Shown: positions 3,640 to 63,994 of the stretch, in pieces
How the letters are laid out: every line of letters begins with the position of its first letter
Numbering within the stretch: position 1 is the first letter of the stretch
Source: Chondrosia reniformis
Lineage: Eukaryota > Porifera > Demospongiae > Chondrillida > Chondrillidae
Direction: 5' to 3'
NCBI GenBank assembly: GCA_947172415.1
Contig: OX359189.1
Span: 3,114,501-3,178,500, forward strand
DNA: 64,000 bases
The notes under the pieces: model-generated
Databases searched by the model: none
What the model saw: the letters and a program-made list of their open reading frames with translations, nothing else
What the model was told of the DNA's origin: nothing
Made by a program: the position numbers and the translations under genes

Positions 3640-3790
3640 TATGCATAGGATTGATCACTAATGAAATGTGGAATTCCCAGAAACAGCTGTCTGGCCCTTT
3701 TAAGACAGAAAGAAAACAAAACTGTATCCTCATCCAAAGTTCTCTAAGACTTAGTTTTTCTGTAAGTAACAAGTTCTGAATAAGGAAAAC
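3640..3790 (+). repeat. Hammerhead-repeat family, degenerate copy
   Basis: A diverged member of the ~245-bp family best seen at 14884-15130 and 62364-62610. It retains GTGGAATTCCCAGAAACAGC followed by TGTCTGG, then the downstream words CTGTATCCTCATCCAAAG. The first core box is CTAATGA instead of CTGATGA, so it is probably inactive. Its paralogue in the second array block is at 9760-9915. Confidence 0.65.
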
Positions 3791-9010: not shown

Positions 9011-9014
9011 GGGC

Positions 9015-9140: not shown

Positions 9141-9310
9141 TGATGTACCCAAACACATGTAGAAGTGTTCATATGATGTATATATGTATATCTTAAATTT
9201 CAGTATACGTATATACGCCACTTCTGTATGATTAGCCTTAGCACATGATCACTGCAATGTCCTGTATTCCAGGTAAGTCACTGTTGTGAGCACTGCTATT
9301 ATAACATCAT

Positions 9311-13237: not shown

Positions 13238-13309
13238 ATCTTATAGTTTAGCTACAAAGTCGCACACTATAAATCCGTAATTCTCCTTTATTATGTAATA
13301 ATATCGTAC

Positions 13310-14111: not shown

Positions 14112-14178
14112 CACATCATCCTGTATCATCCTGCATCATCCCGCATCATCCCGCATCATCCCCATCATCCCGCATCAT
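14112..14178 (+). repeat. 10-bp minisatellite, shorter allele of 9015-9140
   Basis: About 6-7 units of GCATCATCCC with the same flanks as the array in block 1 (TTTGGGC and GATGTACCCAAAC). It is the paralogous array with fewer units. Confidence 0.9.
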
Positions 14179-14339
14179 GATGTACCCAAACACATGCAGA
14201 AGTGATCATATGATGCATATATGTAAATCTAAAATTTCAGTATATATACGCCACTTCTGTATGATTAGCCTTAGCACATGATCACTGCAATGTCCTTTAT
14301 TCCAGGTAAGTCACTGTTGCGAGCACTGCTATTAAACAT

Positions 14340-14880
14340 CTTTATTAAAAATGTTTTGTTCAATAACTACATATGTAACAGCTATTTAAGTAACTGTAAA
14401 AACTAAATGGACACTAATGGATATAATGGAACCTTAAATTGAACTGTATGTGGATAGCATGCATGATTGCATTGTATAGCATCTAAAGACACCAGCAAAT
14501 TGACTGTTGCAGTATGTGTATATTATAGAAAAGGCATATCATCTCTCCTATTGGAGAATTTGCTTTAATATGACTTTAATAGTATAATGAGTTGATTTAC
14601 ATATATCAAAAATCCATAATATTTTTCTTCTACAAGTTACCATACTACATATGAGGGCATTTTGCATAATATAGCACTGGTATGTGTCACAGAAATATAC
14701 TGAGTGCAATTTCTATATATATATATATAGCATAGAGTTACTTTCTTGTATAATAAAGTGGTTATCCTATATATACAGTGCAACTTACAAAATACCCCAT
14801 ATATGGTAATCTAATATAAACAATTATATGTATATATACTTGTGTATTATACTTAGAAAATACATATATACAAATACTGT
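14340..14880. other. Intergenic A+T-rich spacer
   Basis: Between the two duplicated regions. It holds short TATATA runs (about 14714-14728) and no gene, RNA gene or recognised repeat that I can support. Confidence 0.4.
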
Positions 14881-14883
14881 ATA

Positions 14884-15130
14884 TGATTCAAGGATTCACA
14901 GAAGATCAAGATAAAAATAAAGCAAAAGACAAAGACTCGGATCACTGATGAAGGGTGGAATTCCCAGAAACGGCTGGCTGACCCAGTGGAGAAGAAGATG
15001 AAGGAAAAAGAAGGAAGAAAAGACTCCTGTATCTTCATCCAAAGCTCTCTTCAGGTTTAGTTCCCCTATAGGCTCTTTTACAGAATAGGCATAGCATGTA
15101 GTAATATGGTATCTTAGACGTTTCATATGT
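14884..15130 (+). mobile_element. Hammerhead-bearing short repeat (~245 bp)
   Basis: Near full-length member of a dispersed family. It opens GGATTCACAGAAGATCAAG, carries a hammerhead core at 14939-14984, then a purine-rich stretch, TGTATCTTCATCCAAAGC, TTTAGTTCCCCTATAGGCTC and CAGAATAGGCATAGCATGTA. The copy at 62364-62610 aligns end to end. No protein is encoded. A short non-coding repeat with a type I minimal hammerhead fits the retrozyme/Penelope-terminal-repeat class (inference). Confidence 0.7.
14939..14984 (+). ncRNA. Hammerhead ribozyme-like core
   Basis: Order of parts: stem I left arm GGATCA, core CTGATGA (14945-14951), stem II GGG...CCC closing a short loop, core GAAA (14967-14970), self-complementary stem III region, stem I right arm TGACCC. 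Stem I pairs TCA/TGA, then one A-C mismatch, then GG/CC. The cleavage triplet position reads GGC rather than GTC, so this copy may be weak. The copy at 62416 has GTC. Confidence 0.55.
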
Positions 15131-15609
15131 AGGTATCATAATGCATGCATTAGGTTAATTCCGTATATTGTGCATTATATATAATATGTAGATACATAAG
15201 CATGTAGTGTTAACTGCAAATTTATACAAACATTTCAAACAAAAAGTAAAGAGTTATGCCTTGCTGATTGATATTCATACGCATAATTTGTTTGATCTAT
15301 TCTTCTATAATCATATGCAAGCATACAGTAATTAATTAACATATAAATGACCTCATTGACAAATTAATATGATGAAAAAATACAAAAAATTCTTTAAATG
15401 TATATATTTTCAAACAGATCATATATGCATAACACTGGCGTATAAATATATATATCAAACAGTGGAATATATCTTGGTTTTATAGCTGTATAACATATTA
15501 TATAATTAACCAAGTGATAGTAATGTTTATATCTGATTAATGTTTCCTGATCACCTGCATGCACTACACAGAAAAAGCAAATTCGGACTGGAGTTAAATT
15601 TTTACTTTG

Positions 15610-18600: not shown

Positions 18601-19498
18601 GCATTATCACAAGTGGATCTCTGGCTTGCTGTAAGCCATTAGTAGTTGAAATTTCCACTCTGATTGCATCAATATCTTGTGTTGGCCTACTTAATACATA
18701 GTCATTATAGGTGAATGTGGAATTCACAATCTTCACGTTAGCAAGCCCAAACTGGTTGATTTGCATAAAGAACATGGGCCAGAAACCAAAAAACCAACAA
18801 CTGTCAATTGAGATTTCCATAGAATCATATATTAAAGGCTTAAAGTTAAAATGATAATATATCACAATACCCTTTATATTCCAAAATTCGGTCTGTTGAA
18901 TATTTATTGACAGGATTTTTGATTCAATACTTCTATCTGTCACACCCAATATAAATGTTATCAAGAATTCTCCTGAAAATGTTGTTTCTTGTATATTTAT
19001 AATTCCAGTGATTTCAAAAAATGCAACATTGGCAGCAGAAGACGTAAACCACTTTATATTTTTCATTGTTAGATTATGCACATGCGAAATAGATAAATGT
19101 AATTCATATATGACCTTGTAATCTAAATCTCTGAAAAAATACATTTTCAAATTTTCAATTATAATGTTTTTTGAATAATCAATCACCAGGTGATATAGAA
19201 AATGAATGCTACTCTTTAAATAATGTTCTCCTTTAATTTTGACATTTTGTGCTCTTTTAATCTCAATATTTCTCTTTGTTATGAAATGCTCACCTTCAAG
19301 AAAAAACCATGTTACATCAGATGTTGAGAATATACTGTTATTCTTTTGATAGTATCCATCAATTGTGTCACAGGGTGTCCTATTCTGACAACTCGTTTGA
19401 TAATTGGGAGTGACCCAGAAGGTATAACCTAGTGACTCATTGACAACACAGCAACAAACAGCAAGCAATACTAATAGCAAGGTTGTGGTTTTATACAT
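15610..19498 (-). pseudogene. Large beta-helix/Cys-rich polytopic membrane protein, copy 1 (frame lesion)
   Basis: Read on the minus strand, the start is MYKTTTLLLVLLAVCCCVVN, a signal peptide. A Met 14 codons upstream is not shared with copy 2. Next come ~500 residues rich in Asn, Ile and short beta-strand repeats (IKRAQNVKIKG, IIIENLKMYF), like a right-handed parallel beta-helix. A second ectodomain part ends in a Cys-rich module (CSKCPQGYSSVFRGFKCTKC). About nine membrane segments follow, with the loop FLDVFHGAYRWPLGFWFGL, and then an acidic tail (NTEEDETPFSHEE). The frame shifts between about 17927 and 17945, where copy 1 carries ~10 extra bases relative to copy 2 and runs into TAG; downstream the frame is open for ~770 codons. 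So the locus is either a recent pseudogene, two shorter genes, or affected by an assembly error. I know no named family; polytopic proteins with this architecture are expanded in early animals. Role: probably cell-surface recognition. Confidence 0.6.
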
Positions 19499-19668
19499 GA
19501 TCTTACTTGTTCCTGTTGACTGGCCCTTTCTACGTTTCACTGCTCTTTTATAGTAATTTCCCTATTATGTTATTGGTATGTGGGTACCTTTTATACATTT
19601 ACATACATGTAGTATGTCAATATAAATTGTACATATGTGTAGATATATATTTATAGTAGTATACAGCG

Positions 19669-24130: not shown

Positions 24131-24342
24131 ATTAACAAATCCATTCTGAATAACAATAATAATAATTATATACAAGTACTGATATATAAATACAAATATC
24201 AGACAATGGATTGTTTGCTTTATAGCAAATGTATAACATATTAACCAAGTGAATAGTAATGTTTATATCTGAATGTTTCCTGATCACATGCATGCACTAC
24301 ACAGTAAAAGCAAGTTCGGACTGGAGTTAAATTTTTACTTTG

Positions 24343-27300
24343 TTATTGTTCTTCAAATTCCGACTCTTCATGAGAATATGGGGTCTCATCTTCCTCGATA
24401 TTATCTTGACCACTTTCACATGGAACTCCAGCTTTCAGAACATGAATATTCCAAAATGGAAAATCTTCAATTTGATTTACTGCATTCCCTGCTTTATTTG
24501 CCTTCTTGTTTAAGTTTTCAAAAGCTGCATTCCTTCTTTCTCTTTGTCTTTCTCTGAAGTTTCTCCATCTATCTTTGATACCCTTTGGAATAGGGAAATA
24601 CATGTATCCATGGTATGTTGTAATGATCCCAATTTGTATGACTGCAGCTGATACAGAAAGTATACTGGCTGCTTTAGATACAGAAGGTGTCATGTTTAGA
24701 CCAACAAGAACACTTGTTACAAAAATATTTAACAGAGAAAGGGTTTCATTGTTTTCTATATTTCTTAGCCATTTTGCTATATTCCTACATTTCTTTCTAA
24801 AGCTTTTATCTTTGGTTGTACCAGCTTGACTTGTGCGATGATTGGTGGTAATAATCATTTTGCGGAAGGGCCTTACTACATGTATTTCCAAGAAGAAGAA
24901 TCCAACCATGAAAATAAATACAAGCAATGCAAAGGTTTCTATTGGTAATACAATGTGTAACATGAGAAAAATCACTCTAATTATCAATCTCAGTCCAAAC
25001 CAGAAGCCAAGTGGCCAGCGGTAAGCTCCGTGGAACACATCAAGAAAGTGGCTGAACCATAAGCTTCTAATGCACATTCTTCTGAGCAGGTCACCAAACA
25101 GTGTGACTACAGTAAATGGAATGAGGTAGAGAAGAGAGGCTATCACTGCAACTAATCCTAAAGCCAAGTGCTTCCCTTGGAAGTACAGAAGGGTTGGCTG
25201 ATAGAGCCAGCGTGGTGAAGGGGTGCTAGAATCATGAGTGTAGACATTAGTGTATCTGAGAGCAGTGATGATTGCGCCTGTCAGACTACTGTAAGTTAAC
25301 ATTATCAGTGTAGCTAATACAGGTACAGCTCTTTTAGCTACAAAGTCAACCTTAAATATCCTAAAGTTAAACTTGTGTGCCCCAATGATGATGATAACCA
25401 CAAGTGAGAAGAGGTAAATTGGAAAGACAAACTGAAACTTGACTTTTGCAAGCTCATCCATTCCATCATAAAAACAAATTCCACTCGCACTTCCAAAATT
25501 TAGAATAGAAATTATGCTGTAAAATGGTTCGCCAGCATCATAAAGGTATATAATATTTGCATAGAGACTGATACCATTAATGGTCCCTTGTACTATTGTC
25601 AAGTTGAATAAGAAGAGAAGAGCAATGAGTAACAGTCCGACAATAGCATAGAAGATAGAGATCAGGTACCAAGGTCCATGACACTTTGTACACTTAATTC
25701 CTCTAAAGACAGAACTGTATCCTTGTGGACATTTGCTGCATAGGAAGCCTTGACGTAAATTCACACACTGATCATTTACTCCTTCAGTTAATTTTTTTAG
25801 AGTTGTACCTGACTTGGCAAGAAGTTGGTTGCAGAAGAAGAAAGGGCATTGATCTGAAAAATATAGCTTTCCTTCTAAAAATCCTAGCCAAAAGTGTGCT
25901 CTGGTTTGTTTGTAAAAGACTATATCTTCCTTTGAGCTGATGATACAGCTAAATCCATTCAAACTTAAGAATGTATTATAAGTGCATGTTAATCTGTTTG
26001 AAATATTTCTTCTTTGTAAGCCGATAGGACAATATTCAAATAAATGTATTTTTGCTTTGTGGAAAATAAAAAAATCTTTAAATTTATCATATCTGCTTTC
26101 AACGGTAGCAAATGATATTTCAAGACTTTGATGTATTTGATAAGTGAGAACATTTTTACATTCTTTGTCAACTAACACAACTTGCTTGTTTTGCTGGTCA
26201 ATGGAATTAACAACTTCAACTTCTCTATCCTTAATTATTGCACCTATATCACCTACAATTGCAACTAAAAATGTTAAATTTTGCCCTGCATACACTGTGA
26301 AATTTGTTTCATGGCGGCAAAACCACAGACTTTTATTTAGCTTACTATCATTATTGCAAAAGCAAATTTGGTAAGGTGGAGACTTTATATCACCCTCTAT
26401 CCATTCATGCCTAGATACAATAACAGATGTTTTTATATAACTTTCATGAAATGTTTGGTTGACAACTGTCAGACCAGTTGATGTCTCCATTGTGCAATTT
26501 TGCAAATGGCCATTAAAAATTTTGATAGAACCTTTTTCAAGGAAGCCAGTTATATAAATTGTTGAGTCAAACAAGCCTTCATATATTTCTTGTTCACTCC
26601 TTAATTTTCCATCTTTCTTTACTAACTGATAGAAGCAAACACCATTGCATTCTCTGGTAAATAATACATAATGATTATAATAATATATTTGACTATCTTC
26701 ATTGTAATTCGGGATAGATGGCCATAGGTATCCTGTAGGATCAACCAAAATGCCACCTTCTGTTGATTGACCTGCATGTACTACAACAACGAAGAGTCAT
26801 CTAATAGAATCCTTGAATTGAATGTCATTTTAATTCCAATAAAACTACCTATATGACCAGCTGCTGCAAAGTGTTCAATTCTGTTAGTACCGTGCAAATG
26901 AACAATACTTTCTTCCAAAAGCAGTCCAATGCCATCTCCAGTGAAAACAGATACATTATGCATATCAATAAAGAACTGCTGGAAATTCTTAATTGTTATT
27001 ATTTTGGGGTTGAGGCCAATAGTAGTATCAAAATTTGTGAAACATTTTTTTATGTTAAAGGTACAATTGGTCAAGATTATTGTAGGCTTTCTTAAGTTTT
27101 TAATTGTAGGCCAACTATACCATTTAGGTGAAATGTATCTGGCAGCTGCAGAGAAATATGTTAAATATTGGCAACTCTTGGTAATCCTTGCAAGCATGGA
27201 AATGTTTTCAGAATTTTTAACCTTACTGTAATCATGTGTTATTGATATAGGCATGTATATGGTACAATGATCAATTAGCATTATCACAAGTGGGTTTGTG

Positions 27301-28178
27301 GTTTGCTCTAAGCTGGTAATATTAGTTGAAATGTCAACTCTGATGGCATCAGCACCTGATGTTGGTTTATTTAATATGAAGTCATTATAGACAAATGTGG
27401 AATTTACAATCTTCACATTAGCAAGCCCAAACTGGTTGATTTGCATAAAGAACATGGGCCAGTAACCATAAAAACAACAACGGTCAATTGAGATTTCCAC
27501 AGAATCATAAGTCTTACGGGTACGATGATGATCTAATTTAATGCCCCTTGTATTCCAAAAATCGGTCTGTTGAATATTTATTGACAGGAATTTGGATTTA
27601 ATTCTTCTATTGAACTCTTCAAATATAAACTTTATCATGAATTCTCCAGAAAATGTTGTCTCTTGTATGTTAATAGTTCCAGTGACAAGGCATATAAAAT
27701 CGGTAGCAGAAGCTGTAAACCACTTTACATTTTTTATTATTAGATTATGCACATGCTGAAACTTTAAAAATATTTCAGTTGTGAGCCTATAATCATCTCC
27801 GAAAGTATAAATTTTCAAATATTCGATTGTAATATTTTTTTGAAAAATTGATCTCCAGGGAGAGTGAATTTGTTCAAAATAGATGCTAGTACTCTTTAAG
27901 TAATGATCTCCTTTAATTTTGACATTCTGTGCTCTTTTAATTGCAATATCTCTCTCTGCTATGAAATGCTCACCTTCAAGAAAAAAACATGTTACATCAG
28001 ATGTTGAGAATATACTGCTATTCTTTTGATAGTATCCATCAATGGTATCACAGGGTGTCCTATTCTGACAACTCGTTTGATAATTGGGAGTCACCCAGAA
28101 GGTATAACCTAGTGACTCATTGGAAGTATAGCAACATACAGCAAACAATACTAATAGCAAGGTTATGATTTTATACAT
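24343..28178 (-). pseudogene. Large beta-helix/Cys-rich polytopic membrane protein, copy 2 (1-nt frameshift)
   Basis: Paralogue of 15610-19498 in the same orientation. It starts MYKIITLLLVLFAVCCYTSN (signal peptide). The N-terminal ~460 codons are open to about 26781, where a single missing base relative to copy 1 turns SSVVLVHAGQ into SSLL and a stop. From 26748 the frame is open again to 24343 (about 800 codons). At the place where copy 1 is broken (NHY|VLFTRECNG here) this copy is continuous. It also lacks 7 residues after IIYLYD that copy 1 has. The Cys-rich module, ~9 membrane segments and acidic tail are kept. The two copies together show that the ancestor was one uninterrupted ~1270-residue ORF; each copy has since acquired a different lesion, unless these are sequencing errors. 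Confidence 0.6.
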
Positions 28179-28279
28179 GATCTTGCTTGTTCCTTTGACT
28201 GGCCCTTTCTAAGTTTCACTGCCCTTTTATAGTAATTTCCCTATTATGTTAGGCACCTTTTATACATTTACATTGATTA

Positions 28280-31200
28280 ACAACCTGACTTGGCTTCGAC
28301 TGACTATTAGTCACTCCATATACAAATTGACAACCCGATCATTACCGAATCTAGTCGGCCTCTAAACAAGTTTATCGAATAAAGCTAAGTGACTATTTAG
28401 ATGACTACAGAAGAGAACCTTTTCGGTTTCAGTTATTAATTCGGGATAAAACTTGAGAGTGACCCCAATTTTTCGATGTTCTTATATCTTAAAAACGTGA
28501 CTAAAACTCAGAAACCATTGCAAATATTAAACTGATGAATGTGAATCTCTTAAGACATGAAAGTGGTGGCTTCATTTCAAATCATGGTTGATTAAATTAT
28601 CTTGAGATACATTTGCCGCTTCTTGATATCCCCTTGCGCGCCACTGTGTTCTTGCCTACTATAAGGGGCAGCATGGTGAACGAAATATACGGCGAGAATT
28701 CCGATATGATACAGTATAGAGCAGATAGTACTGTATATTGCTGCTAGGCCGTATCATACGGGATATGCCTAATAACGGCGATTCAGAAGTGATAATTGGT
28801 GTCCTTGTGGTCAAATGATTGCAATTCCAGTTTTCACGCAAATTTCAGGGCAATCTCAGCAAGGAACCCTGAATGCGTGAAATGTCACCTGAGTGTTCAA
28901 ACGCTCCAGGGTTACTCTTCCATACAGAGTGAAGACTTAATTCCAGACAATGAACTGCCTTTCTGTCCTAAATTCGTCAGACTTTTTGACTGAATGATCA
29001 AAAGTCTATGAGTTAGGATTTAAGGTAAATTTTTGATTGCATAGTAACGGGGATGTTTTCGATGACATGCCTGTGCTATCTCAAAAAAGCAAGGGTTGCT
29101 TAAGGGTTCTTGAGTGGAAAGAGCTTGAAATCAGTGAAATGGTACCGGTACTGTCACGTGCCGAGAGCTGGGAATCCTGATATGCTGAAGGATTCCAAAG
29201 CAGCCGAGCCGAGACCAAAGTTGTAGCTCCAAAGGAGGCCGTCCTCCTACCTTGAGCCGAGAGCTGGGAAGTTGTAGCTCCAAAGGAGATTGCCCTCCTC
29301 CCAGCTGAGAGCTGGGAATGAGCTAGGAATCCTAATATGCCGAAGGATTCCAGAGTAGCCGAGCCGAGACCAAAGTTGTAGTTCCAAAGGAGGTTGTCCT
29401 CCTACCTTGAGCCGAGAGCTGGGAATCCTGAAGGATTCCAAAGCAGCCGAGCCGAGACCAAAGTTGTAGCTCCAAAGGAGGCTGTCCTCCTACCTTGAGT
29501 CGAGAGCTGGGAATCCTGAAGGATTCCAAAGCAGCCGAGCCGAGACCAAAGTTGTAGATCCAAAGGAGGTCGTCCTCTTACTTTGAGCCGAGAGCTGGGA
29601 ATCCTTATATGCCAAAGGATTCCAAAGCAGCCGAGCCAAGACCAAAGTTGTAGCTCCAAAGGAGGCCGTCCTCCTACCTTGAGTCGAGAGCTGGGAATCC
29701 TGAAGGATTCCAAAGCAGCCGAGCCGAGACCAAAGTTGTAGATCCAAAGGAGGTCGTCCTCTTACTTTGAGCCGATAGCTGGGAATCCTTATATGCCGAA
29801 GGATTCCAAAGCAGCCGAGCCGAGACCAAAGTTGTAGCTCCAAAGGAGGCCGTCCTCCTACCTTGAGTCGAGAGCTGGGAATCCTGAAGGATTCCATAGC
29901 AGCCGAGACGAGACCAAAGTTGTAGATCAAAGGAGGTCGTCCTCTTACTTTGAGCCGAGAGCTGGGAATCCTGATATGCTGAAGGATTCCAAAGCAGCCG
30001 AGCCGAGACCAAAGTTGTAGCTCCAAAGGAGGCCGTCCTCCTACCTTGAGCCGAGAGCTGGGAAGTTGTAGCTCCAAAGGAGGTCGTCCTCCTACCAGCC
30101 GAGAGCTGGGAATGAGCTAGGAATCCTAATATGCCCAAGGATTCCAGAGTAGCCGAGCCGAGACCAAAGTTGTAGCTCCAAAGGAGATTGCCCTCCTCCC
30201 AGCTGAGAGCTGGGAATGAGCTAGGAATCCTAATATGCCGAAAGATTCCAGAGTAGCCGAGCCGAGACCAAAGTTGTAGTTCCAAAGGAGGTTGTCCTCC
30301 TACCTTGAGCCGAGAGCTGGGAATCCTGAAGGATTCCAAAGCAGCCAAGCCGAGACCAAAGTTGTGGCTCCAAAGGAGGCTGTCCTCCTACCTTGAGTCG
30401 AGAGCTGGGAATCCTGAAGGATTCCAAAGCAGCCGAGCCGAGACCAAAGTTGTAGATCCAAAGGAGGTCGTCCTCTTACTTTGAGCCGAGAGCTGGGAAT
30501 CCTTATATGCCGAAGGATTCCAAAGCAGCCGAGCCGAGACCAAAGTTGTAGCTCCAAAGGAGGCCGTCCTCCTACCTTGAGTCGAGAGCTGGGAATCCTG
30601 AAGGATTCCAAAGCAGCCAAGACGAGACCAAAGTTGTAGATCAAAGGAGGTCGTCCTCTTACTTTGAGCCGAGAGCTGGGAATCCTGATATGCCGAAGGA
30701 TTCCAAAGCAGCCAAGCCGAGACCAAAGTTGTAGCTCCAAAGGAGGCCGTCCTCCTACCTTGAGTCGAGAGCTGGGAATCCTGAAGGATTCCAAAGCAGC
30801 CAAGACGAGACCAAAGTTGTAGATCAAGGAGGTCGTCCTCTTACTTTGAGCCGAGAGCTGGGAATCCTGATATGCTGAAGGATTCCAAAGCAGCCGAGCC
30901 GAGACCAAAGTTGTAGCTCCAAAGGAGGCCGTCCTCCTACCTTGAGCCGAGAGCTGGGAATCCTGAAGGATTCCAAAGTAGCCGAGCCGAGCCCAAAGTT
31001 GTAGCTCCAAAGGAGGCCGTCCTCCTACCTTGAGCCGAGAGCTGGGAATCCTGATATGCCGAAGGATTCCAAAGTAGCCGAGACGAGACCAAAGTTGTAG
31101 CTCCAAAGGAGGCCATCCTCCTACCTTGAGCCGAGAGCTGGGAATCCTGAAGGATTCCAAAGCAGCCGAGCTGAGACCAAAGTTGTAGCTCCAAAGGAGG

Positions 31201-33365
31201 CCGTCCTCCTACCTTGAGCCGAGAGCTGGGTATCCTGAAGGATTCCGAAGCAGTCGAGCCGAGACTAAAATTGTAGCTCCAAAGGAGGTCGTCCTTCTAC
31301 CAGCCGAGAGCTGGGAATGAGCTAGGAATCCTAATATGCCGAAGGATTCCAGAGCAGCCGAGCCGAGACAAAGTTGTAGCTCCAAAGGAGGTTGTCCTCC
31401 TCCCACCTGAGAGCTGGGAATGAGCTAGGAATCCTAATATGCCAAAGGATTCCAGAGCAGCCGAGCCGAGACCAAAGTTGTAGTTCCAAAGGAGGTTGTC
31501 CTCCTATCTTGAGCCGAGAGCTGGGAATCCTGAAGGATTCCAAAGCAGCCGAGCCGAGACCAAAGTTGTAGCTCCAAAGGAAGTCGTCCTCCTACTTTGA
31601 GCCGAGAACTGGGAATCCTGATATGCATGCCGAAGGATTCCAAAGCAGCCGAGCCGAGACCAAAGTTGTAGCTCCAAAGGAGGCCGTCCTCCTACCTTGA
31701 GCTGAGAGCTGGGAATCCTGAAGGATTCCAAAGTAGCCGAGCCGTGACCAAAGTTGTAGCTCCAAAGGAGGTCGTCCTCCTACCTTGAGCCGAGAGCTGG
31801 AAAGTTGTAGCTCCAAAGGAGGTCGTCCTCCTACCAGCCGAGAGCTGGGAATGAGCTAGGAATCCTAATATGCCCAAGGGGATTCCAGAGCAGCCGAGCC
31901 GAGACAAAGTTGTAGCTCCAAAGGAGGTTGTCCTCCTATCTTGAGCCGAGAGCTGGGAATCCTGAAGGATTCCAAAGCAGCCGAGCCGAGACCAAAGTTG
32001 TAGATCCAAAGGAGGTCGTCCTCCTACTTTGAGCCGAGAACTGGGAATCCTGATATGCCGAAGGATTCCAAAGCAGCCGAGCCGAGACCAAAGTTGTAGC
32101 TCCAAAGGAGGTCGTCCTCCTACTTTGAGCTGAGAACTGGGAATCCTGATATGCCGAAGGATTCCAAAGCAGCCAAGCCGAGACCAAAGTTGTAGCTCCA
32201 AAGGAGGCCGTCCTCCTACCTTGAGTCGAGAGCTGGGAATCCTGAAGGATTCCAAAGTAGCCGAGCCGAGCCCAAAGTTGTAGCTCCAAAGGAGGCCGTC
32301 CTCCTACCTTGAGCCGAGAGCTGGGAATCCTGATATGCCGAAGGATTCCAAAGCACCCAAGCCGAGACCAAAGTTGTATATATATAGCTCCAAAGGAGGT
32401 CGTCCTCCTACCTTGAGCCGGCAATCCTGAAGGATTCCAAAGCAGCCGAGCCGAGACCAAAGTTGTAGCTCCAAAGGAGGCCGTCCTCCTACCTTGAGTC
32501 GAGAGCTGGGAATCCTGAAGGATTCCAAAGCAGCCGAGCCGAGACCAAAGTTGTAGCTCCATAGGAGGTCGTCCTCCTACCTAGAGCTGAGAGCTGGGAA
32601 TGAGCTGGGAATCCAGATATGCCAAAGGATTCCAGAGCAGCCTAAAAGGCCAAAGTTGTACCTTAGGAGGTCGTCCTCCTACCTTTAGCCGAGAGATGGG
32701 AATCCTGAAGGATTCCAAAGCAGCTGAGCCAAGAAAAAGTTGTAGCTACAAAGGAGGTCGTCCTCCTACCTTGAACTGAGACCTGGGAATCCATTAAAGT
32801 TACAGTTGATTTTTCATCTCGTAACTTGACAAAATTTTGAGATACATATTACTGTAAAGGTCGGCATTTTATTTGTCACGATATGGAAACGATTTTGTAA
32901 CGTCGGTAATACTCCCATACCTCTAGGGCAAATTACATGTCCCTGAATATTGATCATATCGATTTGAATTGATTTTATGATCGATAACCAAAAAATTGAC
33001 AAAAGATTTTTCTTGTGAGACACCTTCCAGAAGTCTATAGAGTCATTTAAGTGATCTGCGACTTGGAAAGGGTTAAATTATCCGTTTTTTGAGACGCCCT
33101 TGGTTTGCATGATGCCTTAAATGATTTCTCTTGGTATGCCTCACCCTCTTGCAATTGTTAGATTCTTATACCTGGATTGTTCCAATATAATTTATTATTG
33201 TAGGATCTAGGTGTATGCCGGCACCCCTCTTTGTTTTTAGTGATGTTGTGGCCTATAGTATATGTATAAGTTTCTGCCCCGATGCCTGGGGTTCCTGTTT
33301 TTAAATTTATATTTTTTGTATTTTTTTTATTTAAGATAAATTATTAAGTATACACCTCATGAAAA
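28280..33365. mobile_element. ~5-kb insertion between gene copy 2 and its duplicated flank
   Basis: In copy 1 the DNA upstream of the large gene runs TTTATACATTTACAT...GTATGTCAATATAAATTG within ~30 bp (19590-19630). In copy 2 the two halves are at about 28265 and 33390. The inserted DNA is G+C richer. It includes unique flanks (28280-29150 and 32800-33360) around the satellite at 29160-32795, and ends in a T-rich tail (33295-33335). No transposase or reverse transcriptase is seen. It may be a non-autonomous mobile element that carries the satellite; class unknown. Confidence 0.45.
29160..32795. repeat. Satellite of ~88/96-bp units, about 40 copies, each with two hairpins
   Basis: Each unit contains GCCGAGAGCTGGGAATCC, a hairpin GGAATCCTGAAGGATTCC, GCAGCCGAGCCGAGACCAAA, GTTGTAGCTCC, and a second hairpin AGGAGGCCGTCCTCCT. 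About half the units have 8 extra bases (ATATGCCG) in the first loop, giving 96 instead of 88 bp. A third, shorter unit type joins GCTGGGAA directly to GTTGTAGC. Differences in the second hairpin fall mostly in its loop (GGCCGTCC, GGTCGTCC, GGTTGTCC), while the paired arms stay complementary. On the minus strand all frames are long and open because of the repetitiveness; these are not genes. Confidence 0.92.
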
Positions 33366-45946: not shown

Positions 45947-48900
45947 GAAAATTATGTATTCCTAAAATCATTATGCAATTACTTCATATGTATGTACGTA
46001 TGCATGTGCCACTGTGCCATAATTTCGATTTCCTAGCCTGTTTTTTGTGTCATTAGACATTTTCATGCCAAGTTAGTACTAATGACAGTAATGTACATAA
46101 ATCATAACATATATGAAAAATCCTCTGTTCTCTAAAGGGTTGAAATGCCCAGACATTCAAAAAGAGTTGAAATACGAAACATTCAAAAGATCCATTTGGC
46201 AGAGCTAGAAGAAATCCTTATTTTATTAGCCTGAAATATGTTTCATTATCATTTCAAGCTTTATATCCACTTGTAAATAGGTCAATAACATTCAGATACG
46301 TAACTATAACTTGTGTAACTCATACTTACGTATGTACATACGTACGTACGTATATAGATTATGTATTCCTAAATTGTTATGAGAGATTTAGCTACATACG
46401 TACGTATCTACGTACGTATAAAGGAGGTTAACACTTTTATTATATACGTACGTAGTTCCTGTTAAAGTGTTTATGTACGTGTGTGTACTTATGAATATGT
46501 GTAGGTGCTCCATCCATTCTACATATTTGAGTTTATAACGGTTGCCTTTTGGATGGCGGACGAGTACTACTACTATTCTGGTTGTATTATACTCATTCAA
46601 CTCATATCTATCGTTATCAGTCTCTACCAAAGCAGAAAGGTATGTCCCTGTCATTATGGCTAATTGATTTATCAAAAATATCTAGATTATGACTCATTAA
46701 GACTTCTTTTATGAATAGCAAGCAAAGCAGTTGCATGATTTGGTGGTATTTAGAAATAGAGTCACAGTAAGGAGAAAGGGAGTAGGTAAGTATGTAGGTT
46801 CAATAGTGCCATCTGTACATGTTAGTGCCAGCTATTATTAGATCATTCACCATATTGATATATTCATTTCCTTGTTGAATGTGGTTACTTGTTATTCTTT
46901 CCTTACTGGGTGTCCTAGTATTGTGTGGGATATCTACATACATACAGGTATCACAGTGTGTACATGCATAATCTAATTTATATTTCAATACGCTCTATCT
47001 AATTTACAAGTTATATATCTACACTGCTCAAAGAAGGATGACTATCCAGCCATCACGTAAATCCTCCCCCACAGACCAAATGGTGGGGAAGGATTTACGT
47101 GATGGCTGGATAGTCATCCTTCTTTGAGCAGTGTAGATATATAACTTGTAATGTGATGATAACCTGCTCACATAGAACTTACTGAAATACATACGTACAT
47201 AGAGATAAAGGCCCATAGTAAACTAAATCTACGTAGTAAGAGCTTTGGATGGGGATGCAAGGTTTCTCCTTCACACTGTCAGTTCCTTTATGTTTGTGTA
47301 TGTACTTTTCTTATTGCGACTGTCTTCCTTTACATTGCTATTTGGTATTTTTACTCAAACATGGAAACCATAATATTATTACTCTTAAGGACATGACCAT
47401 AGTGGGATCCATTCTTGTAATTTAGTACTTACATTTGTTGGTGTTTTCACTTTACCATTGTCTTTGCCTGTCATGATGGTTCTAGAAGTTGAAGGTGTCT
47501 GCAGTGAAATGTTGGTGCCTGGTGATGTCATTGTGATTCCTAAAACTGGCCTCAAATTTCCTTGTGATGCCGTGCTGGTCTCAGGGACAGCAATTGTCAA
47601 TGAGAGTCTTTTGACAGGTAAGACAGTGCACCTTTATGCTCTCAATACCTAGTATACGTAGGTGCCTTTCAAGCATTTGTTATTACATGTAATATACATA
47701 TACATACGTATATATGTTTAAGAATTAATGGCACTATATGTACGTACATTAGGAATACGTACATTAATAGCTACTGATACATGGACGTATGTACATACGT
47801 CCGTATCTTACTTGATAATTATTGAGCTACAGCAACAGTAAATGCAACAATAAATACTGTTACTGTACATAGCTCATTAATTATTTGCTAATTATCTTGG
47901 TAACGACTACTCCATATCATTTCATGTACAACTGTACGTACATATACGTACATATCTAAAACGTCCATTTTTTTTAAATATGGTTGGCATGCTTACAAGG
48001 TTAAGAATACATACAAATAGAAACATTAATTTTCTAGACTTATTATTCAGGAAAGCCTATAGTGCTTTAAATGAGGATTCAGCTTCCATACCAACTTCCT
48101 CTCTGTCTCCATTGAGCCTGTGTATACGTATATGTACGTATATACGCATTGTATTGATTACTATTGAAAATCACAATGAGGCATTCTGTGTATTGTCATG
48201 TTGATTTCCTTTCCATTCCACTTTAAGGAGAGAGTGTTCCTGTTACCAAGACTGCTCTACCCCATGGTGATGGAACATACTTTAGCAGCGTTCACAAGAG
48301 ACATACCATATACTGTGGCACTGAAATTATACAAACTCGTTATTACAGAGAGCAGAAAGTTTTGGCCGTATGTGTCAGCACTGGATTCTGGACAGTCAAA
48401 GGAGGCCTTGTCAGATCTATCCTCTTTCCTAAGCAGCTGAATGTTAAACTGTGGAAGGATTCAATCAAATTTGTTTTAACACTTGGTGTGCTAGCTTTCT
48501 TTGGGGTAGTGTACTCTTTGACAGTTTTGCTCATACACGGAGTAAGTTTTTGAGTCAACCAGTTTCTTTTGATTTCTCATATCTTAATTATGGATGTTTG
48601 TACACATATACGTATGTGGTGCTGTTTAGGTTTTCTATGCTTTTGAATTCATTCTCAGTAATCAGGGGTTTCTTACATGTTATACATCTACGTACGTACT
48701 TTAAAGTTAAGGCCAATAAGGAACTAAACCTAGTGAGAGCTTTGGATGTGGATACAAGAGTTTTCTCCTTCTACTTTTTTCTTCTTCACTAGCCAGACAG
48801 CTGTTACTGGGAATTCCACCCTTTATTGGTGACCCTGGGGGTCTCTGTCATTTTCTTGATTCTGAGAATTGTTGTCTTCTTATTGATCTTTTGTAAGTCC

Positions 48901-51900
48901 TGCGCACGTATGTACATTATTTGTTGTGTTTGTAGTATGAAGTAGAGGAGAGCATCTTCAAGTCTTTGGATGTGATAACCATTCTTGTTCCCCCAGCTCT
49001 TCCAGCAGCTCTCACAGTTAGCACAGTGTATTCGATAGCCAGACTGAGGAAACAAAACATATATTGCATAAGTCCTCAGAGGTGCGTATCTATGTACATA
49101 CATACCTGATTTTCTTCTTGTTAAGGTATTTTACACTCTGAGATGGCTCTTGGCTCTGCTGCATGCTCTCTGAGACCTCTCTAATGTCTATACAATATTG
49201 AACGTTTTCATTTTTCTTTCTATTAGGATAAATCTGTGTGGAAAAATAAAATTAGCTTGTTTTGATAAAACTGGTACACTTACAGAAGATTCAATGAGCC
49301 TGTTAGGAGTAAAACCCTCTGATTATTCTAAGAACTATTTATGCCAGTCTTGCAGTAGCAATTCAATGGATATGCCTGCCCACCAACCAACGTATGTAAG
49401 ATCATTATCACCGTGTTTTACTTTCAGTGTGTGATTTGCATAATTGAAGGCTCGCATTTCTTTGTATTACAGATTTGATGACTTGATTAAGGACCCTTTA
49501 GTATTGCCTGAGAACTCACTACTTATTCAAGCTATGGCATGCACTCATTCCTTAACTCTAATCAATTCTGTTGTCTCTGGTGATCCTTTAGACCAAGTCA
49601 TGCTAAAGTCAACAGGATGGGTACGTATGTATGTAGGTATACAATGAGTGAGATGAGATTGTACGTATGACGAGAGTCTGCTGTATACAGATTGTTCATA
49701 TTTTGTTGCTTTAAATAGGTACTGGAGGAACCAGGAGAAGATACAACACGTTATGACATCATTGTGCCCAGAATGGTGAAGCCAGCCACTTCTAAAGAGG
49801 TTTGTTGTGCACTTTATTTGCTTAAGAAGGCATTGAGAAGAGATTTTTTATATGAGAAGTGTACTTACGTAGTTCTTTGAATATTTATCCTGCCTCAAAT
49901 GAATGATATACAGTACATGTACATACCCAGCAAGTCAGCAATGATTTATGCATAGCTTCAACTGGCCTACCCTTGTGAAGTTGGCTACTTTCTGATTTGA
50001 CCTCATCACCCATATTTAGTTATTAATTACTCCAATGGGACAAATGTTGTCGCAATAGTTTAACCTAGCGGAAAAACTCCTTAATAGTTTTGCATTTTCC
50101 CCTTGCATTGAATTTACAATATTTATAGATTGTAATTTTCATGTTGTGATAGTTTTACTGTATTTACCAAATTTTCCCACTTCTTCAATTCTCCAGTCTA
50201 CAGTTTTGGGTATTATGAAGCAGTTTACTTTTTCATCTGACCTGCAACGAATGAGTGTTTTAGTGAGATCTCTGCCCCAGACTGACCCAAGGAGAACAGA
50301 TGTCTTTGTGAAGGGTTCTCCAGAAATGATATCTCAGCTCTGTCTCCCTGACACTATGCCAGATCAGTTTAACCAAGTGTTGGCAAAGTATGCACACTGT
50401 GGTTACCGTGTGCTAGCATTAGCACACAAAGTAATGTCCATACCATGGCATAAGATGGAGAAAGTGAACAGGTACAGATTTAGCTTGAAGCTAATTACGT
50501 ATGTATGTCTTTTATACATAGCCAGGGTTGCATGCAGAACTTGGTATGGTATGAGGGTGTCAAAGCAGTTACGTACGTACGTATATACGTATACTTCCCA
50601 AAAGTCTAGGGGGGGGGGGAAATGTCCCCTGCCCACCCCCACCTCTATGCAGCCCTGATAGCATTTTGCTACAAATTATGCTCTTTAATCAATTTGCGTA
50701 ATTGATGATGAGACTTTATTCATTAAAATAATTAAGTTTTGCAATATCTAAGTCAGCCCTCCCACAGATGCAGACTGCTGTTTGTTCCAAGTCATGTGTA
50801 TGATTTTATAATCGATACTTAGGCTAGGCATGGCTGGTGAAGGGTTAAGGATATATACCTCTCTACAGAAGGACATTGTTAGAAGGTCCAGAGTGTCCTT
50901 TGAATGAAGGGTACACTGTAAATGTTCATTTTAAGTAGTTTACTATTTGTCTTTGTGTTGTTTCTTTAAAGGACATCAGTTGAATCAGACTTGACATTCC
51001 TCGGACTACTTGTTCTTCAAAATCAATTAAAGAAAGAAACCACTCCTGTTATTAAGACACTCACTACTGCAGATATAAGAGTTGTGATGGCAACAGGTAC
51101 GTATATACATACTTATGTATGTCTCCAAATTGACCCAACACCTGAAACAGTGATTTTATGCCAGTTATCTCTCCTCATACATGACATATTTTAAGCATAA
51201 AAATATATTCTTACACGTACGTACGTACATTGTACATGTTACTGTATGCTTAAGTACATACGTACATACGTAGGTATGTTGCTAGATGCCTTTTACTGAT
51301 TATTTAGGAGACAATCTGTTAACAGCAACCTGTGTGGCCAGGGAGTGTGGAATGGTGGCTCCTCACGACTTCCCAGTTCTGGTAAAGGCTGAGTATGATG
51401 CTTCTATAGATTCCTGTTCTGTTACCTATGAGTCCTTACCGCGATATCCAAGCATTGAAACTTCAGTGGAAATTGAGAATGAGTCCAAAGGTGACATTGA
51501 AGAGCCATTGGTTAGTCAGATAACCTTTCTGAGCTGCGTATAATAGCATGTGTATGTACGTAGGTGTCTAAGGGTGTTTGTATACTTTTACCAATGGCAC
51601 ATTTCCTTCTTCACCTTCTGAACATAATTTGAGAAAGTTCTTCCAAAAGTAGCAGAAATTGTGGTTTTAAAGTGTGTAACCAAATTGCTTAATATTTGTG
51701 CAAACAGTTAAAATAAACAGTCGAAATGGACAAGTACGTATGTACATATGTGAATTTGCTATCTGATTGGATAAAATCCTTAACTCAGCCAAAAAGAGTC
51801 CTACCATAGGTAGTAGAGAACTAGGATATGCAGCTCCCAACTCCCCTTCGCATGAACACTTGTACATCTGGAATTGAATGACCATTGCTATTCCAAGTTA

Positions 51901-54900
51901 CGTACAAATGGTTATCAGAGAGTACAATAGTACTCTCTAAGTAGGAATGGCCCAAAAATGGCCGCCCTATCCAATGTATTAGCAAGCAACACCTCATAAA
52001 TCACCAACAAAGTGATTTTCGGTTATATTCAGTTATTTTCAACCATTAATGCACGCTTTTCAAAATGCCAAAACATGTTTCGACGCTCTACGCGCTCTAC
52101 AGTGTTCAAAAAGTGGCTAACCAGGAATAGGCCATACAAATGTTTTTGCAATTCCATACCTGTAGCTAAAGGAATATCCTGTTGATGTTGATCGGAAGAT
52201 ACATTTAGTGATGAGCGGCCAAACATTTGAATGCGTTCTGAATCACAAACCTGAATTGATCCCAAGAGTGAGTTTTGCTATAAGAAATATTTCTACTAGC
52301 ATCCTGAAACATCTCTCCATACACATATTGCTTTTATCAATTTTATTCCCAAGAAGGTCATATTACATTTAACTGTAAATCTTAACTTGTCATTAAAGAC
52401 AATGCTTCTGTGTATTCTAAATACACAGAATGCACTCCATTTTGGAACTGATTGTTAAGGTTTTATACTGGCTCCATAGGGATTTGAATTTGGTGGACTG
52501 CACTCTTTCACACCATATGTACCTGCAGTTTCATAAGTAATCATATGGACTTATTTTATCTTATTTACAGTTAGTAGTAGCGGGAACAGTGTTTGCTAGA
52601 ATGTCACCAAATCACAAGCAGCTTTTGGTGGAAAATTTGCAGTCACTTGGGTTAGTGGTCTTCTGGTCCGTGTAGAGTAACTATCTTGTTAGACATACGT
52701 ACATAATATTAGAGTGTCAATCACAGGTTTTCTTTTAGAAAATATCATAGAGGGCGACATAATGCTACATACGTATGTACGTACGTAGCAAAATGTTTAA
52801 GGGGCAACCCACGTATGTAGTTCATTATGTTTGTATACTATTGAAAATTGGCTATTCTCCAAAGGGGAGGAAGTATGTTTGAAAGTAGAGCAAATTTCCT
52901 CCATACCTCTGCCACCATCCCTGAAAGAAATCCAGAATTGTTAATGACTTTTGACTGTTATAATTCTTGAGTATGGAGAAATCCCTAGTCAAAAGGTTTG
53001 TTCTCAAGATAAATCAATTTACATTTTCATGAGAATGGAAATTCCAAAGTAATTTCACCTGATCAGGGGTCTGAGATTAGGAATCAGTTATGGCCGTCTT
53101 TTTCCTGCCATAACTCATCAGGCGGATGGATTATGGTACCAGACCAGATCTTGGGTGACAGCTCTCCAGTGGGAATTGCTTGTGCAATATTATTATCTAT
53201 TTAGTAGCATTACATAATTCGTAATAAGGCCCGTTAGAACATGTGTACAGTGTACAAAATATTCTTACCTGTAGGAAGTACGTAGAAATGACCTGAATCT
53301 GTGTCCAGTTGAGCATATTATGAAGTTTGCTTACTTGTTGTTTATTTCTTGTTAGTTATAATGTGATGATGTGTGGAGATGGAGCAAATGATTGTGGAGT
53401 AAGTTGCTTACGTTATTTTACAGAGTAGTGTGTTTGTTGAGGTTACCTTTCTGAATTCAACTGTATTATACTGTAAAGTGTGTAACTGGTCTATCTGTGA
53501 TTCCATCTTACATACGTATATACATACCTCCATATGTTACATCTGATCCTTTGAATGCCAGTAATTATTAGTCGGTAGTATGTATTTCTGCTAGTTAACC
53601 ATTTGACAGATGTTTTGATCTTTCCCATATATTCTGTACACACATACGTATGTCAATACTCCTACTCCTTAGCTTACACTTGCATACCTGGCTTTTGATT
53701 TTACATTTGCTGACTTTTATATTCTGTTTTAATTTGCCGACTACTGAATGCTGATGTAATGTAGTGCAATATACGTAGTACCTGTATTTATGTACGTATG
53801 TGTGTAATGGCATATGTTTGTAGGCTTTGAAGGCAGCACATGCTGGCATATCATTATCTGAGTCGGAAGCATCCATTGCAGCTCCTTTTACATCAAAAAA
53901 ACAAGATATAGAATGCGTCCCAAAAGTTATTCGGTTAGTCCACACAGCTTATGCTTATCCATTCTCTATAGTACAGTTGTGCAACTTAATGAGTACAATT
54001 ACGTACCTTAGCTCACATCAGTCGTTAACTGAAAAGTGTTTTTAAACCTGTCAATAGTATTACCATATAGCGATACATTTGCCATTTTGATAGTAGTGTC
54101 TTTGGGATGGTTTATAGACTCTCAAAAGAGTAAACACTGAGCCATCTGAAATACAAGTGTCTTGAAGTACGTAGTTAGAAGAATTTCTTAACATCTACTT
54201 GATATGAAAAATAGGAGACTTTGAGATCTTAAGGCAATCTTTAAGCCATGATGTTTCGTCATTTGACTCTGGATTGAGAGAGCTACTCAAAACCTCCCTC
54301 ATATGCCATACTGATGAGTCCTAATATGGACAAAGCAGCTGTCTATGGCTTTACCATCTCTTTGAGTGGCTAAGGGGAGACTCTTGTTCTCATCTAGTGA
54401 AGGTTTTGCCCATTAGCTCATTGCACTCTTCAGGAGACATTAGTGGGTGGGGAAATATCCAGAGTCAAATGATGAGACATGAATAATCTAATACACCATT
54501 TTCCTACATGCTATGCCTACTCTGTAATAAATAAAAAAAGGCCTATAGGGAACTAAATCCAGGAGAGGCTTTGGATTAAGATACAGGAGTCTTCTCTTCC
54601 TTCTGCTCCACTGGGCCATCTACTTGATAGTAGTAGTCTCACTTAATTTGTTAAAGGTCTTTAGTAGTGTACATGTGTACGTACGTATGTCTGAAGTGTA
54701 TTATGGTGTACATTTTTGTGTTGTATTCAGGGAGGGTAGAGCTTCTCTGGTAACAACCTTCAGTTTATTCCAGTTCATGGCTCTCTACAGCATAGCAGAG
54801 TTTGTTACAGCTGCCACATTGTACTTTGTGAGTTGTGAAACCATTGCCTTAATAGTCACATATGCACTGATTGTGTGGTGTGATTGACTATTTCTTGATA

Positions 54901-61900: not shown

Positions 61901-63994
61901 ATTTAGTTGACATTTCCAGTTCCAGGGAGAAAGTAGTGGAATGAAACAAACCTTCTTTAAGGTAAGCTTCTAAAACCTCCTCGCTAACATTTTGCATGTA
62001 GTCCTCAGTGCAAGACCGAGGTCTTCTTCGTCTTCTACCACTATGACACCCAGTACTGTCTATCCGGGTCCTCTTAGAACGAAATGTCAGGCTAATTTCA
62101 GTTTCTGCATACAAGTAAACAATATTGTGTAAATCTATAATCTTGTAATCCTAATATGAATATTGGATAAGTGCAGCAAGACTGAAAATAAAAACAGTTG
62201 CTTATGACTATACATACAGCTAAACGTTTTACCATTTTTCAAGAGATCCTGTACCTGCCTCCAGGTTAATTCAAATATAGCTATGTCATTAATTAGAACA
62301 ATTTCATCAGAGACCATTAACCCTAATAATAAAGAAAAGATATATAAAAAGTTATAAACAAACATATCCAAGGATTCACAGAAGATCAAGGTAAAGAAAA
62401 AGATAAAGACTCCCAGGATCACTGATGAAGGGTGGAATTCCCAGAAACGGCTGTCTGACCCAGTGGAGAAGAAGATGAAAGAAGGGAAAAGAAGGAAGAA
62501 AAGACTCCTGTATCTTCATCCAAAGCTCTATTCAGGTTTAGTTCCCCTATAGGCTGTTTTACAGAATAGGCATAGCATGTAGGAAAATGGTATATTAGGG
62601 TTTTCATACGAATGTACATACGTATATTGTCTTGAACACTAAGTACCTTGCATGTGAGCAGGACCTCCTAGCTGTATTTCCAAAACAATTGCACTAAGTA
62701 GAATTGATTTGTCTTCTGTGAAGATAGGTTCCAAAGAAAGCCCAAAATTCTCCATTGCAATCTGCTTTTGTTGAAGGTAGACTGTGCAGATGTCCTTTTC
62801 CCAAATCTCAACACAAGAAAATTCCTACAAACATTCATCAGACTCAATTACCTTGTGTATGTCCAGACAGACACATGCACACATGTACTCTGAAATAGAA
62901 GTGCAAGGGCTATGATGTAACAGAAACAAATCATCACATCATGGAATTTGCACAGGATTAGTGCAATTACCTACGTACATAAATCCCATTTCACAATGAG
63001 TACTCAGCCTGCCTAGACTGTAGCCTCCATCTTCATTTATTATGAAACCACAAGTGTTTTATTTATGGTGGATTAGTAGGTTGAAGGCAGTCATCCAAAC
63101 TCACCATCAGAAGTATACCACACTGATCAGCCCTAAGTAGGGTGAAACAGCTGTCTGCGGTTCTGTAATTTTATCATCTTGGATGAATGGGAAGTAATCA
63201 TTGGGAGGTTATCACTGGCTGGTGTTTAATAGGACTTCAGTCTCCCAACTAAGATCAGATTTAGGGTCACTTGGCTGGTTCAGGTCCAGTGATTATATCC
63301 ACCCCATACGTACATTTATACATATGTATGTACATGTACTGTAAATGTAATACTTACCAGATTACCAATGACTTCTGAGTCACTTGGCAGCGAGAAGCCT
63401 GTATAAGGTAGTGACATCGGTAAAGGTACGTATGCCTGAGTAATATAGCAGCAGTGCACCCGTAAGATGGAGAAACTAACTATTCATTACAGCTCCAGCA
63501 AATTAAACTTCACTATGGCACTACTACGTATGTAGTCAGCATCGCTTAAACTCACAAAACTACCAAGAACACTACCACCACCTTTTAGTGAGGCGGTAGT
63601 GGAGGCATATGTACGTATGTACCTCTACGACATCTACGTACCTCTCCAGAAAATACTTTGCTGTACGTACCTCCCTCCATCCATCCCTCCCCCTCCCTCC
63701 CTCCCTCCATTAAAGTAAACTAAATTCGTTTTAACAGCAAATAAACACTGAATTAGGCTTGCTTCCTTAAAATGTTACCATATACGTATATTCGTATATA
63801 CATACGTACGTACATATATATAATTTCAACCCCTCCCCCTTTGTGATAATCTACCTTTTATGTATAGTCTTGATAGTTTAGTGGTTACAAGATTATGAAT
63901 TATGCAAAACCATGTTTAGAATTTTATCAAGATGTTAAACCTTTGGAGTTAATCATGACTGACTCACTTTGACTGGAACCTTCTTTATTGGTGA
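58973..63994 (-). CDS. Tiam-like Rac guanine-nucleotide exchange factor (PDZ-DH-PH), partial
   Basis: Exons in transcript order: 63968-63994 (weak, at the edge), 63358-63435, 62647-62824, 62233-62322, 61952-62104, 61736-61866, 61541-61675, 60853-60900, 60679-60781, 60250-60435, 60068-60180, 59437-59557, 59306-59364, 59145-59244, 58973-59048. Phases close throughout, giving over 520 residues. Domains: PDZ (FGLSLEPIF... QLGGPAHMQGLMVSDEIVLI... EISLTF); a basic linker (SGRRRRRPRS); a DH domain starting KLHKTISDLLQTEKDLTK, with FKVYAAFCTNH and FTKPIQRVLQYPLYLHVLL, ending YINEMQRI; then a PH domain (TITWLNPHEEL, VFIGVIVFFVTD, CHFLLRS). PDZ then DH-PH, with these words, matches Tiam1/2 (Rac activators at the membrane and junctions). 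The 5' part (PH-CC-Ex, Ras-binding) would lie beyond the right edge. The 3' exon after 58973 was not resolved. Confidence 0.85.
62364..62610 (+). mobile_element. Hammerhead-bearing short repeat (~245 bp), best copy
   Basis: Aligns end to end with 14884-15130 (GGATTCACAGAAGATCAAGG at the left, GGCATAGCATGTAGGAAAAT at the right). It contains a complete hammerhead core at 62416-62461. It is antisense inside an intron of the exchange-factor gene, between exons 62233-62322 and 62647-62824. Confidence 0.75.
62416..62461 (+). ncRNA. Hammerhead ribozyme, complete core
   Basis: Left arm GGATCA; CTGATGA (62422-62428); stem II GGG/CCC with loop TGGAATT, with A-A opposed next to the core; GAAA (62444-62447); stem III formed by the self-complementary ACGGCTGT; cleavage after GTC (62453-62455); right arm TGACCC. 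Stem I pairs UCA/UGA and GG/CC with one internal A-C mismatch. All invariant core bases of the hammerhead are present. The stem III word can pair with itself, the arrangement seen in dimer-type minimal hammerheads of animal retroelements. Confidence 0.65.
63117..63161 (+). ncRNA. Hammerhead-like motif, one core change
   Basis: Left arm ACCACA pairs with right arm TGCGGT (one A-C mismatch). Core box CTGATCA has C where G is expected. Stem II is GCCC/GGGT with loop TAAGTA, then GAAA, palindromic ACAGCTGT and the GTC cleavage site. Stem I and II sequences differ from the 62416 copy but still pair, so the structure, not only the sequence, is conserved. Confidence 0.55.
63668..63712 (+). repeat. 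Pyrimidine tract (CCCT)n
   Basis: CCTCCCTCCATCCATCCCTC followed by further CCCT units, in an intron of the exchange-factor gene (its sense strand is purine-rich). Confidence 0.85.

Follow-up and report, generated by a model that had tools for sequence, protein, structure and literature searches.

Minimal type I hammerhead ribozymes of Penelope-like elements and Terminons are reportedly the subject of Cervera & de la Pena 2014 and Lunse et al. 2017, and the Naiad-type elements, which have an N-terminal endonuclease (EN+), are said in Craig et al. 2021 to be without canonical hammerhead motifs. A GIY-YIG domain located N-terminal to the reverse transcriptase (RT), together with a CxC linker, is the mark of Naiad-type Penelope-like elements.

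Three papers describe minimal type I hammerheads in Penelope-like elements (PMC7761336, PMC6155905, PMC11167929). The role of the hammerhead in these elements is called a mystery, and it is suggested that Penelope-like hammerheads may act as dimers (PMC7761336). The axolotl hammerhead HHR_Amex2 displays U.U at the base of helix II; 22% was cleaved in 1 h as a monomer and cleavage was better as a dimer (PMC7229834). In Anolis carolinensis, reverse transcription of the Poseidon element PAc was shown to be initiated internally, and insertion in vitro did not require cleavage (PMC11167929). In PMC10941475 Naiad is named only as a class. Among the papers listed for hammerheads with sponge, Porifera or Amphimedon there was none on such an element, and among those listed for Naiad none addresses hammerheads in Naiad-type elements.

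The window, i.e. the whole 64-kb stretch of DNA analyzed (C1:3114501-3178500), is part of a 117-Mb assembly of 15 contigs, which was the genome searched. At positions 62410-62468 of the plus strand it displays, in order, CTCCCAGGATCA, CTGATGA, A GGG TGGAATT CCC A, GAAA, CGGCTG, TC and TGACCCAGTGGAG. This is the order of left arm, core, hairpin, GAAA, CGGCTG, TC and right arm that a preliminary description of this DNA had claimed, and its further claim that every invariant hammerhead core base is present, in order, is also borne out by the sequence. The left arm of helix I, CTCCCAGGATCA, is at positions 62410..62421 and is followed by CTGATGA at 62422..62428, which corresponds to core C3-A9. 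Helix II (62429..62443) consists of the three G-C pairs of a GGG/CCC hairpin (62430-62442) behind an A62429.A62443 mismatch at 10.1/11.1. GAAA at 62444..62447 supplies core G12-A14 and A15.1. The sequence CGGCTG (62448-62453) lies within helix III, ACGGCTGT (62447..62454), which ends with U16.1 at 62454. C17 is at 62455 and cleavage is predicted 3′ of this base from its position within the motif. The right arm of helix I, TGACCCAGTGGAG, is at 62456..62468.

From the pairing tables, five of the first six pairs of helix I are formed in the window copy and A62418.C62459 is unpaired. The run consists of three pairs, the A.C miss, two pairs, an A.A miss and five more pairs around a bulged U. Helix III of this copy displays an A-U and a C-G pair with a GGCU loop and, judging by its bases, could pair in cis (2 bp and a tetraloop) or between two RNAs. 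ACGGCTGT had been termed self-complementary; this is correct when G.U pairs are counted, but the sequence is not a true palindrome.

The motif is found in a solo, 5′-truncated pLTR copy of a Naiad-like Penelope-like element at positions 62368..62605 (plus strand), as delimited by BLAST to positions 1447-1689 of locus L034 and to the pLTRs of locus L110. Its 5′ boundary is the hotspot (CC)AAGGATTC, and its 3′ boundary, TTTTC, is the one common to the copies. The same pLTR is represented a second time at 14886..15140 (plus strand), by a decayed copy with 88% identity in sequence comparison; the copy at 48700..48910 (minus strand) belongs to an older sister subfamily and its core is decayed; and a copy of a third subfamily with a CTAATGA core is at 3648..3744 (plus strand). 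The repeat is about 240 bp in length, and in 40 places scored among 1286 candidates the other 39 are 94-98% identical. The 34-nt core, at three mismatches or fewer, is present at 2526 places genome-wide with the sister subfamily counted in, and the reversed core pattern matched no place in the same genome search. Copies aligned with their flanks share a 3′ end, their 5′ ends are spread over hundreds of bases with the hotspot at (CC)AAGGATTC, and the longer copies run into an RT frame.

L110 (C1:4318400-4322300) represents the whole element, pLTR - open frame - pLTR. Its pLTRs (1-291 and 3502-3792) show no difference over their 291 bp (100% identity). Each has one core, at 101 and 3602, and the two cores are in direct orientation 3501 bp apart. 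The open frame between the pLTRs (347-3337) has 997 codons, counted stop to stop, and has an N-terminal GIY-YIG, a CxC linker (CEC in EPCECHK) and C-terminal RT motifs. GIY-YIG at residues 126-159 has a Pfam E-value of 2.2e-4 at 21.9 bits (cut-off 22.6), and the RT part of a further copy, L086, is matched by RVT_1 (E=2.9e-6, 27.6 bits, cut-off 29.6); both matches are significant and fall slightly short of the curated thresholds. For the L110 frame in full, RVT_1 was not listed at E<=1, and comparison of the RT with PDB sequences yielded three matches (best E=0.067), none of them an RT. The RT motifs in the L110 frame resemble those of this enzyme family. Among 150 scored matches to part of the L110 frame, 24 rows have an open frame of 806-1010 aa and 20 of these are without a stop inside the match. 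At least three further pairs of pLTR starts, among 100 places listed, are 3464-3502 bp apart with a frame match between each pair.

On these alignments the carrier is firmly assigned as the pLTR of a Penelope-like element, and the window site lies in a fragment of its end repeat, of which the genome has a few thousand. The preliminary description had proposed a non-coding repeat of about 245 bp, perhaps an undescribed carrier, in an intron of an exchange-factor gene. The repeat is real, but it is part of a coding element and is not free-standing, and a new class of short carrier is not upheld, as the copies are 5′-truncated ends of that element. The identity of the host gene as an exchange factor was not borne out: two minus-strand open reading frames gave no Pfam match above cut-off.

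Compared with the known systems, the element is like Naiad-type elements in its N-terminal GIY-YIG, CxC linker (EPCECHK), C-terminal RT, pLTRs and high copy number. Those elements are reported to have no canonical hammerheads, whereas the present family has a near-complete, non-canonical one. Features in common with the hammerheads of Penelope-like elements and Terminons are the pLTR location, the short self-complementary helix III, the lack of evident loop-loop contacts and the many dispersed solo copies; here, unlike there, the base of helix II has a mismatch, no Rfam match is found, and GIY-YIG is N-terminal. PAc also has a hammerhead in the pLTR/ORF-start region, however its endonuclease is C-terminal and its hammerhead overlaps the ORF start (PMC11167929), whereas here about 210 nt separate the motif from the start of the open frame downstream. 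The only feature that may be new is the N-terminal endonuclease of the carrier, as in Naiad-like elements.

With about 240 bp and thousands of copies, the repeat would also fit an animal-type retrozyme, i.e. a non-autonomous element of short tandem units that has a type I hammerhead and is propagated through circular RNA. However, this reading is rejected and is hardly credible, because each copy is a 5′-truncated end of a coding element; the starts are scattered, apart from one hotspot. In addition, the closest same-strand cores are 1089 bp apart (among 100 exact places listed of the 2526, all on C1 and part of C2), two less exact cores in locus L033 lie 970 bp apart, and a canonical retrozyme-type family exists separately in the same genome. 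Animal non-LTR retrozymes (PMC7229834) do have type I hammerheads in which helix III is short, but they are tandem repeats of about 150-450 bp with canonical hammerheads, whereas the present motif is in a pLTR. The repeat does not have the look of a retrozyme.

The Rfam hammerhead models at gathering cut-offs reported no match in the whole 64-kb window. At E<=10 there was no match in the 1101 bases around the site or in sister copies in six loci, and the covariance search that the preliminary description had proposed gave no match at the site even on 101 bases at this threshold, which is one half of the outcome it had named as refuting. The term "complete" hammerhead therefore appears too strong for a motif with A.A at the base of helix II, A.C in helix I and no Rfam match. 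As a positive control, the Rfam family model was run genome-wide and 51 of 73 scored matches were above the cut-off. The bona fide hammerheads of this genome read TGCCATA-CTGATGA-GTCCTAATAAGGAC-GAAA-CAGCTG-TC-TATGGCTC and variants.

A model, R1, was built from 14 of these bona fide hammerheads and run without filters; it carries the CAGCTG of its training set. R1 gives the window site (62420-62457) 15.1 bits, E=0.087, the fourth best score in the window, and the 28 other window sites listed below it have 12.5 bits or less. The third-best match, at 3648-3701 (20.5 bits), is in the copy of the third subfamily. In 17 fetched loci the older sister copies reach 19.6 bits, E=0.003. In the matches shown for the window site and the older copies, the core and helix III are matched and helix II is skipped.

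The minimum-energy fold of the site is not the hammerhead. That of a bona fide hammerhead of the same genome is likewise not the hammerhead, thus minimum-energy folding is uninformative as a test.

The bare pattern is expected by chance 0.42 times per window and occurs at least once in 33 of 100 shuffles. With a helix II of at least 3 bp, a helix III of at least 2 bp and at least five of six helix-I pairs, all constraints chosen after the site had been seen, the expectation is 0.003 per window (6 matches in 240 Mb of Markov-random sequence). With 6/6 helix-I pairs, also post hoc, it is 0.0005 (1 match in 240 Mb of random sequence). In the genome as a whole (235 Mb, both strands) about six such sites are expected by chance, and about one with 6/6 helix-I pairs. 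These numbers bear on the possibility that the hammerhead resemblance is due to chance and that the pLTR sequence is kept for protein binding, reverse-transcription priming or the like. The one to six sites expected genome-wide and the lack of an Rfam match at the site or in sister copies favor this possibility, however the site is rare at the scale of the window.

Alignment of the copies bears further on this question. The 107 places in the fetched sequences, with overlapping loci counted twice, give 61 distinct stretches; nine with gaps or insertions were left out, and the set analyzed was of 44 different 59-mers. The older consensus is TTCCCAGGGTCA-CTGATGA-AGGGTGGAATTCCCA-GAAA-CAGCTG-TC-TGGCCCAGTGGAG. 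Its inner helix I, GGGTCA/TGGCCC, has 6/6 pairs and its helix III is ACAGCTGT, a true palindrome that is present in 17 of 25 older-type rows. The young consensus has GGATCA/TGACCC and ACGGCTGT, and the window copy belongs to this young subfamily. Between the two consensus sequences there are four differences in the 59-nt block. Three keep a standard pair, and one pair is lost through the fourth, a G-to-A change in the left arm.

The core is intact in 27 of the 44 distinct rows, i.e. 12 of 15 young, 12 of 25 older-type and 3 of 4 others. All six helix-I pairs are found in 13 of 25 older-type rows (seven of the 25 also have an intact core) and in one of 15 young rows. Helix-I pair 4 is formed in 19 of the 44 copies; five of the 25 older-type rows have A.C at this pair, so this mismatch is not confined to the young subfamily. 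The core is lost in 13 of 25 older-type rows, nine of them as CTAATGA, where G5 is lost. The 10.1/11.1 position is paired in none of the 44 copies (A.A in 43 and A.G in one). Both the core losses and the mismatch in 44 of 44 copies favor chance resemblance.

The hammerhead structure pairs 87.4% of cells, compared with at most 53.7% when slid along the alignment. Covariation is not convincing, a further point for chance: pairs changed on both sides are as frequent in 176 of 500 shuffles, the covariation score is as high in 16 of 500, and RNAalifold prefers another fold over the hammerhead. In 31 old copies the parts of the hammerhead block have a mean identity of 0.83-0.99 and the flanks 0.60-0.79, a comparison that is biased by ascertainment, as the copies were found through the hammerhead block. 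The conservation extends past the motif into TGTATCCTCATCCAAAG, which also favors chance. On the other side, GAAACAGCTGTC is common to the older consensus and to 14 of 14 bona fide hammerheads, and CACTGATGA and GAAACAGCTGTCTG are both common to it and to 5 of 14. The older consensus is better paired and resembles the bona fide hammerheads of the genome. These shared non-core bases argue against chance, as does the presence of the motif in the exact element class and region known for such ribozymes. Chance resemblance, with conservation for other reasons, is considered a serious possibility that falls well short of an even chance.

The block might instead be conserved as coding sequence, a frame of about 61 aa (AKDSQKIKIKKK...GLVPL), with the hammerhead look as a by-product. 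Consistent with this, 142 of the best 150 scored matches to the frame are without an internal stop, and subfamily gaps of 6 and 12 bases are present in several aligned rows. However, all four of the consensus differences in the 59-nt block change an amino acid (hand count), and on this basis coding conservation is rejected. Other rows have frame-breaking gaps, such as one of 13 bases, the first in-frame ATG is not before codon 37, and stop codons are located directly upstream. This explanation is very improbable.

A hammerhead-type motif in a retroelement is the likelier reading, because the carrier class is known to carry minimal type I hammerheads. The reading preferred here derives the site from a hammerhead of the minimal Penelope-like type, located in a solo pLTR copy of an autonomous Naiad-like element, and it is given an even chance. 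The estimate for hammerhead origin had been slightly above even and was reduced because of the older-type rows, with the core kept in 12 of 25 and CTAATGA in nine. The motif is near-complete and structurally flawed, thus a weak or decaying ribozyme in the pLTR is probable, more so than a novel type of ribozyme carrier. It would be weak or dead as a monomer and possibly active as a dimer.

As to the origin of the short copies, a TATA-like box, TATATAAGG (L110 positions 16-24), begins 33 nt upstream of the hotspot. Counts of 34-mers at three mismatches or fewer give 647 places across the hotspot upstream and 1353 just after it. About half of the copies that reach the hotspot thus seem to stop there, although the variability of the patterns may differ. 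At the core there are 2526 places (sister subfamily included), and just after the cut 1659. Copies that start at the cleavage site were considered as a sign of cutting in vivo, and no excess is present after the cut; this is weak evidence, as the four patterns differ in variability.

The short copies run across the presumed cleavage site, so uncut RNA is a regular template, much as with PAc, whose insertion in vitro did not need cleavage. In 46 copies measured, 28 were sorted as hotspot starts, two of which (L020 and L077) are actually longer. The flanks of these 28 copies share words of mean length 4.61, e.g. CATACTTCAA in L004, and shuffled flank pairs have a mean of 3.87 (sd 0.18, maximum 4.46 of 200). 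The shared words fit retroposition with short target-site duplications.

In the proposed process, transcripts of the pLTR would begin about 33 nt past its TATA-like box, close to AAGGATTC, with the motif lying about 52 nt further on in the RNA. An active core would be cleaved 3′ of GUC (3′ of 62455 in the window copy), and cleavage at both cores would set free a 3.5-kb monomer. For helix III (ACAGCUGU or ACGGCUGU), pairing of two copies in a dimer would be the most favorable arrangement. Short copies would be formed when reverse transcription begins at the pLTR 3′ end on uncut RNA, in line with the internal initiation known for PAc. Slow or absent cleavage is to be expected, as the young subfamily is missing one helix-I pair and all sampled subfamilies have a mismatch at the base of helix II. 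In principle a mismatch at this position is not fatal, as HHR_Amex2 with its U.U shows. The window copy is solo, has no promoter and has a weaker helix I, so its activity is unlikely to matter; alone and promoterless, it very probably does nothing at its locus.

A broader proposal is held more tentatively, at clearly less than an even chance. A Naiad-type element would carry in both pLTRs an unusual hammerhead, with an A.A-opened helix II and a palindromic dimer helix III, that has a common origin with the retrozyme hammerheads of the genome. Several subfamilies, including the young abundant one, would be losing it while transposition continues. If a Naiad-type element does have a hammerhead, the ribozyme may be older in the class than thought, or alternatively may have been exchanged between elements and retrozymes. 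One genome with retrozyme-type hammerheads and with both an older, better-paired and a younger, degraded pLTR motif would offer a direct way to test the importance of cleavage for transposition. The case also illustrates that a ribozyme can be overstated when it is called from the core pattern of a solo copy.

The retrozyme-type family (loci L041-L056) has canonical hammerheads, and some direct pairs are 354-355 bp apart, e.g. C3:1599837/1600191, C6:3921765/3922119 and C6:4724360/4724715. L050 displays a 130-bp direct repeat, 352 bp apart. Two strong R1 matches are found on the plus strand of the window. The one at 63113-63165 (58.4 bits; Rfam 25.5 bits, cut-off 34) is a decayed bona fide type I hammerhead in which G8 is changed, with CTGATCA for CTGATGA; it is the better hammerhead relative in this neighborhood, located about 650 bp from the site at 62410-62468. 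The other, at 54301-54353 (64.9 bits; Rfam 25.1 bits, cut-off 34), has a changed GAAA and is contained in a second decayed retrozyme-type hammerhead unit at 54277-54484 (plus strand). This unit directly adjoins the 3′ end of an inverted Naiad-like pLTR fragment at 54477-54604 (minus strand), and the two are perhaps a joint insertion.

At locus L065 (C1:2151588-2151767) a repeat copy is found inside an open frame of 469 aa and was possibly taken into a gene. The window also displays a long tandem-repeat array at 29160-32792, which is open as long minus-strand frames such as EDDLLWSYNFGLGSA... Two duplicated pairs likewise have long minus-strand frames; the pair at 6127-9308 and 11279-14340 is 87% identical in DNA and the pair at 15441-19604 and 24185-28273 is 89% identical.
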